Position numbers and translations under genes: made by a program. A stretch of 32,590 bases of DNA from a virus, in IMG/VR virus record IMGVR_UViG_3300011126_000064, positions 1 to 32,590 of that record; one strand, written 5' to 3'. Of the stretch, positions 7,804 to 13,541 are shown piece after piece. Under the pieces are notes generated by a model, which was not told the DNA's origin, searched no databases, and saw nothing but the letters and a program-made list of their open reading frames with translations. Position 1 is the first letter of the stretch. The number at the start of each line of letters is the position of its first letter.

Positions 7804-8037
7804 TTATTCGTTATCAATTACAAATTTAACATTAAATAATATTATAATAGTTCTATGCTTTTTCACACCGTTGTAACTCATACCGTATTTTTTAGCGTAG
7901 TCTGGAATAGTTAACAAATTTAGATACTCACCGCATAGTTCAATTTGTTGTACTAAGCCATTATTTGTTAACTCGCCTTGTTCGTATTTTTTAGCGGTGA
8001 AATCTCGTAACTTCTCAGCGTTTATAGTGGTTTTCAT
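7804..8037 (-). CDS. Small helix-turn-helix protein, 77 aa
   Basis: Residues 44-60 (IPDYAKKYGMSYNGVKK) look like a helix-turn-helix in which the second helix starts at SYNGVKK, followed by a beta-like tail TIIILFNVKFVIDN. Similar small phage proteins carry a YAKxxGxSYxGVxK segment. It is probably a DNA-binding regulator of early genes, but there is no direct evidence for its target. Confidence 0.65.
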   Translation of the reverse strand: MKTTINAEKLRDFTAKKYEQGELTNNGLVQQIELCGEYLNLLTIPDYAKKYGMSYNGVKKHRTIIILFNVKFVIDNE

Positions 8038-8093
8038 AGTGGTTCAATTTAGTGAATGAATGATAATAGTAGTTGGCAGTAATAAACCCTACC

Positions 8094-8381
8094 TCAACTT
8101 AGAGTCTTATCCTCGGTACTTTGGTCCAAGTCTAAACTTTTATCAATATTTATTAGGTCCTGTTCATACGCAGGGTCATACCAAACACATTCTTCATAAT
8201 CTATAAGTTGTTCTTGTGTTTCTGGTTTACTGCTGCCAACTCCAAATAAAATTACTAAAGCATTTTTCAACTCTGTTATTTCATTATTCATATCATTTTT
8301 AATTAAAACGTTATTTTCTACTTTTAAAAGTATTTCTATACGCTCTATTTCTTTTTTTAAAACTTCTTTTACTAATTCCAT
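8094..8381 (-). CDS. Small coiled-coil protein, paralogue A
   Basis: A 95-residue protein whose first 50 residues are a charged helix with leucine spacing (MELVKEVLKKEIERIEILLK) ending in ALVILFGVG. Those residues are almost identical to the protein at 9042-9353; the C-terminal halves are unrelated. The DNA identity extends 187 bp and ends inside the gene at a GTTGGCA motif, so this is a mosaic of a duplicated 5' half and a different 3' half. The function is unknown. Confidence 0.68.
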   Translation of the reverse strand: MELVKEVLKKEIERIEILLKVENNVLIKNDMNNEITELKNALVILFGVGSSKPETQEQLIDYEECVWYDPAYEQDLINIDKSLDLDQSTEDKTLS

Positions 8382-8420
8382 AATACTTTTATTTTTAATC
8401 TTTAATAATCTTATTCGTGT
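8234..8420 (-). repeat. 187-bp duplicated segment, copy 1
   Basis: Bases 8234-8420 match 9206-9392 with four differences by my alignment. The segment covers the shared 5' half of the two paralogous genes and their 39-bp leader. It begins at TGCCAACTCC and ends at ATTCGTGT in plus-strand reading; both end motifs recur elsewhere in the region. Confidence 0.9.
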
Positions 8421-8423
8421 TAG

Positions 8424-8738
8424 TTAGCAGTAATTTAAGGCTGTCTTTAATGCTCTTATTTCTGTATTTGTGGCAGTTAGGTAATATTGTAAATGTCCAA
8501 TCTCACCATCAATGGTTAGCCAGTTTTTTTTAAACTCTACCTTCTCTTTTTCTAATCTCTCAATATCTTTTTCTATTTTTTCCTTAAACGTTCTGCTAAC
8601 TCCAAATAAAATTAAATTTTCTACGTTTTCGTAAGCTATTAATTTACCAAGTTCAATACCAGATAAATGACCTTCTTTTTCTTCTAGTTTTTTAAGCCTT
8701 ATTAATTCTTTTTTAAATTGGTTTTCTGTATATTCCAT
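8424..8738 (-). CDS. Small coiled-coil protein, 104 aa, related to the LFGV pair
   Basis: A highly charged, mostly helical protein with a long run predicted as coiled coil (TFKEKIEKDIERLEKEKVEF). It carries LILFGVSR at the place corresponding to VILFGVG in the flanking paralogues, encoded by the same stretch of DNA (8594-8614 against 8234-8254 and 9206-9226). The N-terminal part is otherwise different. It lies between the two copies of the duplication. The function is unknown. Confidence 0.66.
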   Translation of the reverse strand: MEYTENQFKKELIRLKKLEEKEGHLSGIELGKLIAYENVENLILFGVSRTFKEKIEKDIERLEKEKVEFKKNWLTIDGEIGHLQYYLTATNTEIRALKTALNYC

Positions 8739-8768
8739 CGTTATCTATTTTTGTATTTATAAAATTAT

Positions 8769-8782
8769 AATCTTATTCGTGT
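8769..8782 (-). repeat. Junction motif ACACGAATAAGATT
   Basis: This 14-mer occurs three times exactly in non-coding junctions (8407-8420, 8769-8782, 9379-9392) and once with one change (10612-10625). It always lies between a stop codon and the next leftward gene. Confidence 0.75.
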
Positions 8783-8783
8783 T

Positions 8784-8853
8784 AGTTGTAACAAATACAT
8801 TTTTGATATATGTTGTATTCTTTTTTCATTCGCAAAATGTACTTGCAACAACT
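8784..8853 (-). ncRNA. Long stem-loop A (20-bp arms)
   Basis: Arms 8784-8803 and 8834-8853 are inverted repeats. On the minus-strand transcript the arm beginning AGTTGTTGCAAGTACATTTT pairs with AAAATGTATTTGTTACAACT through 17 Watson-Crick pairs, two G-U pairs and one U-U mismatch. The 30-nt loop is pyrimidine-rich in plus reading. It lies 10 bp after the stop of the 42-residue gene (8864). A second copy lies at 9750-9818. It could be a terminator-like RNA end, an RNA stabiliser, or a DNA element for recombination. Confidence 0.6.
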
Positions 8854-8863
8854 ATGTATAAAA

Positions 8864-8992
8864 TTAATGCCAAAATTCGTGCATACTTTTTACTAATCGT
8901 TTTCTTTTTAATTCCTCATAGGTCCAGTTAATTTTTAAAGCAATTAGTAAACCTATTGGTAACATCATTATTATTAATACTATTTCTAACAT
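8864..8992 (-). CDS. Single-span membrane protein, 42 aa
   Basis: The protein is MLEIVLIIMMLPIGLLIALK followed by a charged tail (INWTYEELKRKRLVKSMHEFWH). The first 20 residues form one membrane segment; the positive tail is expected inside the cell. It fills a gap of about 300 bp between larger genes, and its stop is followed closely by stem-loop A. The role is unknown; small membrane proteins encoded early often affect superinfection or host physiology. Confidence 0.58.
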   Translation of the reverse strand: MLEIVLIIMMLPIGLLIALKINWTYEELKRKRLVKSMHEFWH

Positions 8993-9012
8993 ATTTTTAT
9001 TTTTTTAAGTTG

Positions 9013-9036
9013 GCACTAATATTATACTATAAAGTT
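9013..9036 (-). repeat. Junction repeat (AACTTTATAGTATAATATTAGTGC)
   Basis: This copy of the junction family lies directly after the stop at 9042 and is flanked by two exact 9-bp direct repeats, AAGTTGGCA at 9007-9015 and 9032-9040 in plus reading. Compare 9727-9753, 10955-10981, 12498-12525 and 12857-12882. Confidence 0.5.
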
Positions 9037-9041
9037 GGCAA

Positions 9042-9353
9042 TTAATTACCTTTTTGCTCCGGCTCTGTTTCCATATAAAAAAAGTTTTCTAATTCACTAA
9101 ATTTATAGTGTCTATTTTTATATTCATATACTCCAAACTGTTTTTCAAAACAATTGTATTTTAACCATTCCTCAAAGTTTTGTTCTTTTTTTGCCGGCAA
9201 CGTAATGCCAACTCCAAATAAAATTACTAAAGCATTTTTCAACTCTGTTATTTCATTATTCATATCATTTTTAATTAAAACGTTTGTTTCTACTCCTAAA
9301 AGTATTTCTATACGCTCTATTTCTTTTTTTAAAACTTCTTTTACTAATTCCAT
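9042..9353 (-). CDS. Small coiled-coil protein, paralogue B
   Basis: A 103-residue protein identical to the 8094-8381 protein over its first 50 residues except K20G and N23T (LLGVETNVL). The C-terminal half differs and is aromatic (WLKYNCFEKQFGVYEYKNRH). All four DNA differences of the duplicated part fall in those two codons. The family is not recognised. Confidence 0.68.
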   Translation of the reverse strand: MELVKEVLKKEIERIEILLGVETNVLIKNDMNNEITELKNALVILFGVGITLPAKKEQNFEEWLKYNCFEKQFGVYEYKNRHYKFSELENFFYMETEPEQKGN

Positions 9354-9392
9354 AATACTTTTATTTTTAATCTTTAATAATCTTATTCGTGT
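9206..9392 (-). repeat. 187-bp duplicated segment, copy 2
   Basis: This is the partner of 8234-8420, with the same length and the same ends. The copies are in the same orientation, 972 bp apart, so recombination between them would delete the three genes or gene parts lying between. Confidence 0.9.
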
Positions 9393-9414
9393 AAAGTTGG
9401 CAGTAATTAAAGCA

Positions 9415-9699
9415 TTATTCTTCTCTTGCTATGTATTTAGAGTATATGTCGCTTACACTAAAAAGCAATCCATCTTTTATAAACTCTTGTGCTGTTAGTG
9501 TATATCCTTGTTGTTTAGCCCATTCTCTTAGATTTGGTGTATTCTTTTCCTTTAACTCAATGCCAACTATGTGCATATTTAATGCTTGTTGTATTACTTC
9601 TTCTAAATCTTCACAATTGTAAGTTATACCTTTATTATCTTCTGTAAATACTCCATTGGTTCTGCACCAACTTCTAATGTGTTTTATTCCTTTTGTCAT
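9415..9699 (-). CDS. Hypothetical protein, 94 aa
   Basis: The family is not recognised. It starts MTKGIKHIRSWCRTNGVFTE and contains LREWAKQQGYTLTAQEFIKD; the repeated (R)xWxxxxG pattern at residues 9-16 and 58-66 suggests two short similar motifs. The start at 9699 is preceded by an A/T-rich leader and stem-loop B. Confidence 0.66.
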   Translation of the reverse strand: MTKGIKHIRSWCRTNGVFTEDNKGITYNCEDLEEVIQQALNMHIVGIELKEKNTPNLREWAKQQGYTLTAQEFIKDGLLFSVSDIYSKYIAREE

Positions 9700-9726
9700 T
9701 TTAATATATTTTTAGTTTAATTTAAT

Positions 9727-9753
9727 CAAGCACTAATTATGCACTATTAAGTT
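9727..9753 (-). repeat. Junction repeat (AACTTAATAGTGCATAATTAGTGCTTG)
   Basis: The core AGTGCATAATTAGT is shared exactly with 10955-10981. It lies between stem-loop B and the start of the 94-residue gene. Confidence 0.6.
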
Positions 9754-9818
9754 GTAACAAATGTTTTGATTGTATTCTCAGTTCTTTTTTTCATTACGTC
9801 AAAACACTTGCAACAACT
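9750..9818 (-). ncRNA. Long stem-loop B (20-bp arms)
   Basis: Arms 9750-9769 and 9799-9818 pair as in stem-loop A, with the same two G-U pairs and the same U-U mismatch. The inner six to seven pairs differ from A (GTGTTTTGA here against GTACATTTT in A) but differ on both arms so that pairing is kept. The 29-nt loop shares TTGTATTC and TTTTTTCATT (plus reading) with A. It lies 17 bp after the stop of the 56-residue gene. Confidence 0.62.
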
Positions 9819-9835
9819 CCAAATATAATTAACGG

Positions 9836-10006
9836 TTAAAAAGCTCTATCTACACGTGTTAAAATATTACCTGAGCAACAAGCCGTATCTGGTAAATTAA
9901 TATTTCCTTTTAACCTATATCTTAAACCTCTAATAGTTTTATAACTCTCATAAAGTTTATTTGATTCAATCCAAAAATGAGAGTGGTTTTTATCCTTTGT
10001 AATCAT
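9836..10006 (-). CDS. Hypothetical protein, 56 aa
   Basis: The protein begins MITKDKNHSHFWIESNKLYE and ends CCSGNILTRVDRAF. It overlaps the upstream gene by 17 bp and occupies a gap of about 290 bp otherwise without genes. Composition is protein-like, with evenly distributed charged and aromatic residues. The last codons lie in a 19-bp sequence (9845-9863) that recurs in a non-coding junction at 11444-11462. The function is unknown. Confidence 0.58.
   Translation of the reverse strand: MITKDKNHSHFWIESNKLYESYKTIRGLRYRLKGNINLPDTACCSGNILTRVDRAF
9845..9863 (-). repeat. 19-bp repeat TTTAACACGTGTAGATAGA, copy 1
   Basis: An exact match to 11444-11462. Here it is at the 3' end of a coding region; there it directly follows a stop codon. 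Both copies contain the palindrome ACACGTGT. Confidence 0.85.
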
Positions 10007-10614: not shown

Positions 10615-10639
10615 CATATTCGTGTACAGTTCTAAACAA

Positions 10640-10927
10640 TTAAAACGTATTAGGCACTTCTTCTTTATAAACGAGATAAAGGCTATTATAACTATGTTCT
10701 TTTCCTTTATATGTATAAATACCTTGCACCCTTTTTATTTTATTTATTTTTCTCCACCTTGGAAAACCTGGTGGTCTTTCCCTTTTTAACTGTGTAGAAC
10801 TATGCGCATAATTAATTGCTTTAACTCTTTCTTCTACAATCTCACTTACTGTCTTAGTTCCTTTATTACAAACCCAGAATATTATATCTTCTGCAAAATC
10901 TGTATATTCTTTTTTTAAGTTTTCCAT
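10640..10927 (-). CDS. Hypothetical protein, 95 aa
   Basis: I start at the ATG at 10927 (MENLKKEYTDFAEDIIFWVC). A GTG at 10957 is in frame, but the promoter-like AATTACATTTG lies between the two. The middle is basic and proline-rich (LKRERPPGFPRWRKINKIKR), suggesting nucleic-acid contact, and the C-terminus has YTYKGKEHSYNSLYLVY. The family is not recognised. Confidence 0.64.
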   Translation of the reverse strand: MENLKKEYTDFAEDIIFWVCNKGTKTVSEIVEERVKAINYAHSSTQLKRERPPGFPRWRKINKIKRVQGIYTYKGKEHSYNSLYLVYKEEVPNTF

Positions 10928-10954
10928 AATCAAATGTAATTCTTTTTTTATTAA

Positions 10955-10981
10955 CACGCAACTAATTATGCACTTTAAGTT
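10955..10981 (-). repeat. Junction repeat (AACTTAAAGTGCATAATTAGTTGCGTG)
   Basis: The best-conserved member together with 9727-9753. It begins seven bases after the TAG of the gene ending at 10988. Confidence 0.6.
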
Positions 10982-12171: not shown

Positions 12172-12190
12172 TGCCATACTCTATAAAGTT
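12172..12190 (-). repeat. Junction repeat related to 11332-11350
   Basis: TGCCATACTCTATAAAGTT in plus reading; lies 8 bp after the stop at 12199. Confidence 0.5.
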
Positions 12191-12198
12191 GTAAACAA

Positions 12199-12474
12199 TT
12201 ATTGGCTCTTAAAGTCTTTTAAATAATCTTCTGGTTTTTTGCTAGAGCTTTCGTCATAATTCCAATAAACATACTTTGCAACCGCCAACAACTGCTCGCT
12301 ATCGCTTTTACAACAATGTGTATAATTAATAGCTTTTTCTAGTTCTTTTATACAATCTCTGTAAACAAAAAACTTATTCATAGCCTTAACTCTTGTTATA
12401 GGTGATTTTGCATTATCAGCTTCTTGTCTATATTTAACCATTCTTAATCTCCAAGTTTTTAAAAGTTCTTTCAT
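12199..12474 (-). CDS. Hypothetical protein, 91 aa
   Basis: Basic and helical in the first two thirds (MKELLKTWRLRMVKYRQEAD, then RVKAMNKFFVYRDCIKELEK), containing THCC at about 52-55. The C-terminus is acidic and lysine-rich. The family is not recognised. A possible Cys pair is seen but no zinc motif. Confidence 0.68.
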   Translation of the reverse strand: MKELLKTWRLRMVKYRQEADNAKSPITRVKAMNKFFVYRDCIKELEKAINYTHCCKSDSEQLLAVAKYVYWNYDESSSKKPEDYLKDFKSQ

Positions 12475-12856: not shown

Positions 12857-12882
12857 CGCACTAAGTTTTTACACATATAGTT
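12857..12882 (-). repeat. Junction repeat, diverged copy
   Basis: The minus-strand sequence starts AACTATATGTGTAAAAACTT and ends AGTGCG. The preceding TTTAATTGTTTAGAACT also follows the stop codon at 10640, so this copy is best related to that junction. Confidence 0.4.
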
Positions 12883-12896
12883 CTAAACAATTAAAG

Positions 12897-13196
12897 TTAT
12901 AGTTGGTTTTCTTTATATTCTGCGATAACTTGTTTAAAACTATATTCTTTTGCATTTTGTTTATCATAGTATTTATTACTATTTTCTATAAAATAATCTT
13001 CAATGTATTTTTCTAAACCTGTTTTGTACTTGTCTTTAACGTGTATAGAACTAGGTTTAACATCAAATTTAAACTCTTTTTCATCGTGAAAGAAGTCTTG
13101 TAATCCTTCGCATTTACTTACATAGGTGTCACCATTTGTATTTGTTAGTTTTATTTCTGTATGGTTTTGGTAATCTATTTCTATTATTACTTTCAT
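12897..13196 (-). CDS. Hypothetical protein, 99 aa
   Basis: A charged protein with an N-terminal strand-rich part (MKVIIEIDYQNHTEIKLTNT) and a helical C-terminus (YYDKQNAKEYSFKQVIAEYK). The family is not recognised. Confidence 0.68.
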   Translation of the reverse strand: MKVIIEIDYQNHTEIKLTNTNGDTYVSKCEGLQDFFHDEKEFKFDVKPSSIHVKDKYKTGLEKYIEDYFIENSNKYYDKQNAKEYSFKQVIAEYKENQL

Positions 13197-13245
13197 TGTT
13201 TTATATTTTAAATTAAACTTGTGTTAAACATTCAGTTACAATTAA

Positions 13246-13455
13246 TTAAAACGCTCGTAATATTTCGTTTTTGTTTATCGCAGTTTTTACAACTCCAAAC
13301 TTAGTTCCTTTGCTTTTATCGTTAATATCAACCCTAACAAGTTCTTTTATGTTTACGATAATAAACTGCTTATTGTCTTGTAATAATTCCATAATTCTAT
13401 CTGTATCATCTTGTACTATAACTTGTGGATCTGTTTTTGTTATTAATAGTGTCAT
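13246..13455 (-). CDS. Hypothetical protein, 69 aa (first larger early gene)
   Basis: A small alpha/beta protein, MTLLITKTDPQVIVQDDTDR, with NKQFIIVNIKELVRVDINDK in the middle. It is the first substantial gene of the leftward operon, so it is probably expressed at once after infection. No helix-turn-helix is evident. The family is not recognised. Confidence 0.66.
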   Translation of the reverse strand: MTLLITKTDPQVIVQDDTDRIMELLQDNKQFIIVNIKELVRVDINDKSKGTKFGVVKTAINKNEILRAF

Positions 13456-13541
13456 AATTTGGTATTTATTTTATATTTATTTTTAACTAAATGGTAACTA
13501 TGTATAAAAAATAGGGCTAAAAATAGCAGACAGTTACGCAT
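13452..13541 (-). CDS. Possible hydrophobic leader peptide, 29 aa
   Basis: The frame MRNCLLFLALFFIHSYHLVK plus nine residues has one hydrophobic segment, and its TGA overlaps the ATG of the next gene (ATGA). It could be a leader peptide or small membrane protein. Its length leaves real doubt. Confidence 0.35.
   Translation of the reverse strand: MRNCLLFLALFFIHSYHLVKNKYKINTKL

Follow-up and report, generated by a model that had tools for sequence, protein, structure and literature searches.

We conclude that hp1 and hp2, two hairpins in the early region of an IMG/VR virus record (the window, here the whole stretch of 32,590 nucleotides that was analysed), are probably the paired ends of two ORF-less cassettes in an attC-like array that has no phage integrase. 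A cassette in this array is a segment running from GTT to AAC whose two ends match each other, mostly in a cassette-specific way, and successive cassettes are separated by palindromic joints of the form AAC-L''...L'-GTT with covarying arms of their own. Arrays with this layout are also present in other flavobacterial phages, and the ends of blocks common to different contigs lie close to cassette boundaries more often than expected by chance. The window itself is best explained as a flavobacterial siphophage carrying the array in its leftward early region. It encodes a helicase, a primase-helicase, an Erf-like annealing protein, a terminase, a portal, a major head protein and a tape measure protein, and the relatives of its terminase are found in Cellulophaga phage phi10:1, Flavobacterium phage 11b and Flavobacterium genomes. 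The two hairpins sit among small leftward ORFs that have no clear relatives: most ORFs between 8.0 and 13.5 kb had no homolog among the terminase relatives, none was found for the protein of ORF 8424-8738, and BLAST of the region against phages gave no match.

The first-pass annotation had described two 20-bp stem-loops with compensated inner pairs, and both lie where it had placed them: hp1 at 8785-8852 (minus strand, 68 bp, ends GTTGTTGCAAGTACATTTT / AAAATGTATTTGTTACAAC, GTT-end flank score 14.5) and hp2 at 9751-9817 (minus strand, 67 bp, ends GTTGTTGCAAGTGTTTTGA / TCAAAACATTTGTTACAAC, flank scores 8.2 at the GTT end and 12.4 at the AAC end). A search of the window with the arm pattern returned exactly these two matches, and 100 shuffles returned none. 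The minus strand is the coding one in this region, and on it each hairpin forms 20 pairs (18 Watson-Crick and two G·U), with 7 and 13 pairs flanking a single U·U mismatch. The folding energies on this strand are -19.9 kcal/mol for hp1 and -22.1 kcal/mol for hp2 (z -3.7 and -4.5), as compared to -14.8 and -16.9 kcal/mol on the plus strand. Counted inwards from GTT, the two hairpins agree at arm positions 1-12 (GTTGTTGCAAGT / ATTTGTTACAAC), and positions 13-19 are changed on both arms with the pairing intact (ACATTTT/AAAATGT in hp1 versus GTTTTGA/TCAAAAC in hp2). The two minus-strand G·U positions that had been noted as shared are located at 7 and 11; the outer arms are common by descent, so these do not represent two independent events. 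Position 11 is nevertheless a real rule across the family, a G·T being present there in 42 of 75 further units.

The hairpins begin 10 and 17 nt past the stops of small ORFs (8864-8992 and 9836-10006), in agreement with the spacing first reported, and the next gene start lies 45-50 nt beyond each, which makes them elements between genes rather than clear-cut 3' ends. The suggestion that they might be RNA 3' ends finds no support, given that there is neither a U-tract nor an intrinsic terminator call (GC-rich stem plus T run) at hp1 or hp2, and that no Rfam family matched the window at gathering score; a tRNA scan was likewise without a match. Micro-ORFs of 15 codons within each hairpin were considered and rejected, since 62-bp relatives of the hairpins have no ATG on the strand shown.

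The best reading of hp1 and hp2 is as the matched ends of two ORF-less cassettes inside a larger cassette chain. From about 8.0 to 13.5 kb the early region is a series of GTT...AAC units separated by palindromic AAC...GTT joints; with gene ends lined up, at least ten units are present in the window, hp1 and hp2 among them, and in every one both ends are complementary. The paired end sequence differs among most units (GGCA/TGCC, AGCA/TGCT, CTA/TAG, GTAA/TTAC), and is shared by hp1 and hp2. Most units are 127-264 bp long and contain a small ORF, either complete or its end only, hp1 and hp2 being without one; ORFs generally end in the units and start in the joints. On the minus strand, as are all the cassettes that follow, a cassette of 169 bp at 8072-8240, with ends GTTGGCAGCAGTAAACC/GGTTTATTACTGCCAAC, encodes the C-terminal part of ORF 8094-8381 and includes its stop. 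C-terminal parts are also held by the cassettes at 8423-8600 (178 bp, ORF 8424-8738), 9034-9212 (179 bp, ORF 9042-9353), 9396-9567 (172 bp, ORF 9415-9699), 10629-10800 (172 bp, ORF 10640-10957) and 12880-13051 (172 bp, ORF 12897-13196). The cassette at 12188-12314 (127 bp) meets its gene, ORF 12199-12474, in a widespread ...AINYTHCCKSDSEQL... module, and that at 13235-13498 (264 bp) has weaker arms and encloses ORF 13246-13455 entirely. A further inverted repeat of 63 bp, GTTAACAAAT...ATTTGTTAAC, is present at 7910-7972 inside ORF 7804-8037 and is without the family's flanking arms.

The joints are equally regular. Six were measured in the window, all on the minus strand, and these are 178-184 bp long with matched L arms. 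The joint at 8241-8422 (182 bp) supplies ORF 8094-8381 with its leader, its start codon and its first 47 codons; those at 8601-8784 (184 bp), 9213-9395 (183 bp), 9568-9750 (183 bp) and 10801-10978 (178 bp, L arms GCATAATTAGTTGC / GCAATTAATTATGC) contain the starts of ORFs 8424-8738, 9042-9353, 9415-9699 and 10640-10957, respectively, and that at 8853-9033 (181 bp) contains the whole of ORF 8864-8992. The joints at 8241-8422 and 9213-9395 are near-identical although flanked by four different cassettes, and the identity stops in the AAC/GTT arms on both sides. As a result, two early genes have near-identical first 47 codons and different C-termini after GTT. Measured from AAC to the next GTT in 29 similarity clusters from the window and other phages, joint lengths fall into classes of 48, 81-82, ~116 and ~184 bp, with one of 250 bp, and the steps between classes are mostly ~68 bp. 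The long class usually carries an ATG frame of 41-58 codons that is open into the cassette. Within a joint, L'' and L' match at 23.4 versus 12.4 in shuffles (maximum 13.85), and their mismatches are one-sided on the sense strand (77 G.T, 6 T.G, 0 A.C and 1 C.A); at two L'' positions a conserved G faces T in place of unpaired bases.

When units were picked by their flanking context, a cassette's own ends agreed at 5.18 of the 7 variable positions of the arms, versus 2.41 when shuffled (maximum 3.21 in 1000), a test in which the arms themselves were unused, albeit with the mild circularity of a flank profile built from arm-selected units. Ends that face each other over a joint match at only 2.48 of 7 positions in the same units. 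For the window alone the figure is 5.4 versus 3.06, reached by 0 of 5000 shuffles, which is supportive only, as some window boundaries were chosen by complementarity. Across 33 phage loci, GTT...AAC was the commonest trinucleotide pair bounding a strong inverted repeat (35, the next having 21, at the highest threshold, a net arm of at least 14). The GTT/AAC signature with arms complementary at 7/7 positions occurred 38 times and was seen 0 times in reversed sequence, the valid control here, an A.C control being uninformative as the reverse complement of the signal. Unit arm positions 4-10 show a weak asymmetry (11 G·U versus 5 A·C), so most of the G·U asymmetry stems from the fixed positions.

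Because the inner arms vary by unit, a context-based search took the place of the covariance-model search that had originally been proposed. The upstream-flank pattern of the unit identified 29 virus contigs in IMG/VR, and inspection showed the same layout in almost all of them; these contigs are metagenomic and partly redundant, and identical arms were removed, related ones not fully. Further covarying copies, whose absence the first-pass annotation would have counted against itself, are numerous in related phages. Many of the contigs encode AINYTHCC(KSDSEQL) at the entry to the unit, and BLAST of this repeat led to Tenacibaculum phage JQ, which has the same architecture; Polaribacter phage P12002L likewise has the same unit and joint layout. 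As an observation in its own right, a repeat that is nearly invariant at the DNA level encodes AINYTHCC(KSDSEQL) in many unrelated small phage ORFs (12199-12474 in the window; contigs L154-L182). In contigs L169, L170, L174, L178 and L180, cassettes are followed by a common leader that contains two small hairpins (ataaaaacacgttttaatgtgttttat, ccaacgttttaatgttgg).

Other hairpin units without an ORF were also found, of 62 bp, with arms of 16-17 bp and loops of ~28-30 nt: one is common to contigs L159 and L120 with one base different, and two are present in L176. hp1 and hp2 are of the same kind. In the unit common to L159 and L120 the upstream arm is the same and the downstream joints are different. 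A 187-bp block common to L157 and L172 ends at AAC/GTT arms, and one common to L155 and phage JQ ends at GGGTAAC. Overall, alignment ends fall within 10 nt of cassette boundaries at a frequency of 0.15 versus 0.06 at random, a modest excess from alignments that are not independent. Among the interpretations first offered for the hairpins, that of a small mobile structure fits best, more specifically as cassettes that lack an ORF and belong to a family whose breakpoints lie at GTT/AAC.

Outside the phages, a joint of the same type was present in 1 of 119 Flavobacteriales genomes (contig L189, 1380-1540, GATAACggtctagtgtatgagtagtagcg...cgctattaattatacacattGTTGTATGC). This suggests that hosts carry such joints at least occasionally; the contig belongs to a cellular genome and is possibly a prophage. 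Strict patterns gave no match in 299 Flavobacteriaceae genomes, and BLAST of the hairpins against the terminase relatives gave chance-level matches only. The exact arm pattern matched 22 loci in viral contigs, which were rejected on inspection as chance-like matches in coding sequence.

In integrons the R boxes read R' = GTTRRRY and R'' = RYYYAAC, and extrahelical bases of attC serve strand choice. Like attC sites, the joints are bounded by AAC...GTT and have inner L arms whose spacers are unequal, a variable terminal part, a poorly conserved sequence in which pairing is kept, a conserved asymmetry of the arms and, in the phage consensus, commonly a G after AAC. Six joints in the window are attC-type imperfect palindromes between ORFs, as in an array or CALIN. 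The GTT...AAC units themselves were rejected as attC, which runs AAC...GTT. The available text of Qi et al. (2023) reports CALIN, or attC clusters, without an integrase in P12002L, detected by HattCI/Infernal and IntegronFinder with at least two attC per CALIN, and the recombination of P12002L attC2 into attI1 by IntI1 (PMC9892861). The window cassettes, which lie between AAC...GTT palindromic joints and lack a phage integrase, resemble the P12002L CALIN in that text; the own-end covarying arms, ORF-less mini-cassettes, length classes and gene starts in joints that we see here find no mention in it.

Other features depart from attC. Integron attC sites have the order R''-L''-VTS-L'-R' and a reported length of 57-142 nt (PMC2727003), which the window joints exceed at 178-184 nt and the 116-nt class of other phages fits. 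The GTTRRRY box is found at only 3 of 39 context-defined starts, hp1 and hp2 both reading GTTGTTG, and the arms show conserved G·T mismatches rather than extrahelical bases. In place, R'' pairs with the following R' only at GTT/AAC, and the R arms instead pair with the far end of the cassette over 15-30 bp, beyond what an R box needs. We found no counterpart to this own-end matching of each cassette in the open-access text of the integron literature. The departure from GTTRRRY, the length of the joints and the extent of own-end matching lead us to call the array attC-like and not to file it as an integron. An integron requires an intI integrase gene, which a CALIN lacks. The window and 11 further phage records gave no PF00589 tyrosine recombinase, the control being positive in 14 of 14 genomes; any enzyme would thus act in trans.

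On this basis we propose that the cassettes may move by integron-type, single-strand site-specific recombination at the GTT/AAC triplet, with a recombinase that might be supplied in trans by the host or a co-infecting element; neither an excised circle, nor a recombinase, nor a rearranged isolate was encountered. In the excised circle the cassette's own start and end would meet and rebuild a complete paired site, much as, in a circular integron cassette, the R' box of the cassette's attC is made whole by the cassette's own first bases. A start that must pair with its own R'' in the circle need not pair with its neighbour past the triplet, and this is the pattern found. The conserved G·T positions on the sense strand may mark strand identity, and hp1 and hp2 could be internally emptied or minimal cassettes that retain only the recombination ends.

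It is possible, and we suggest it only tentatively, that the array represents a separate, undescribed class of cassette shuffling in Flavobacteriia and their phages, a proposal that asks for several features jointly: matched ends of up to 30 bp; joint classes ~68 bp apart; strand identity by fixed G·T; a non-IntI recombinase in trans; and chimeric early proteins made from start joints and end cassettes. An explanation at the level of mRNA seems to us unlikely. In this scenario the ends of a cassette transcript pair and close it on itself, which would stabilise or insulate short early messages or provide T7-like double-stranded processing sites, and hp1 and hp2 would be hairpins between the genes of the leftward early mRNA. 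The RNase III sites of the T7 early region are indeed long hairpins between small early genes, which the 20-pair stems resemble, but here the pairing spans whole parts of ORFs, and over several hundred nucleotides such matching would be a weak closure of an mRNA. Both hairpins are stable on the transcribed strand and more so than on the antisense strand, as an RNA role would also predict, and read on the sense strand their mismatches form G·U. The first-pass annotation had taken these G·U pairs to point to RNA; the asymmetry is systematic, but a single-stranded DNA site with conserved bottom-strand mismatches fits equally. A plain stem, moreover, has no need of a GTT/AAC fixed in sequence, blocks of sequence break at these triplets, and there was no U-tract, Rfam or terminator match.

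MITE-like transposons with element-specific terminal inverted repeats, of which hp1 and hp2 would be non-coding copies inserted between conserved L' and L'' half-sites, appear improbable. The terminal inverted repeats, the short ORF-less forms and the occurrence of one inner element in two places that differ in their flanks all recall such elements; however, a target-site duplication was not seen, a transposase was not recognised, the flanks are paired joints themselves, and the repeats vary between elements where one transposase should need common ends. We give very little weight to start-associated regulatory repeats controlling small early genes in the manner of the ESAS of cluster K mycobacteriophages, which are also imperfect inverted repeats near the starts of small phage genes and would suit hairpins 45-50 nt upstream of small genes and the ACACGAATAAGATTA common to leaders, because ESAS have one consensus repeat of ~17 bp, spacers of mostly 4-13 bp and a fixed link to a 13-bp start sequence (PMC3203893), whereas here the arms are unit-specific and the spacers, usually coding, range from ~28 bp to several hundred bp.

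If hp1 and hp2 are indeed the paired ends of ORF-less cassettes, two odd hairpins are tied to a system in which small early genes and gene parts may be exchanged by phages in cassette form. With a gene start in many joints and a gene end in many cassettes, such exchange would swap the C-termini of small early proteins. The own-end matching, the fixed G·T positions and the length classes provide sharp, searchable rules that could identify the missing recombinase. Were this to hold true, the ORFan regions of Flavobacteriia phages would be built by site-specific recombination and not by illegitimate recombination alone.
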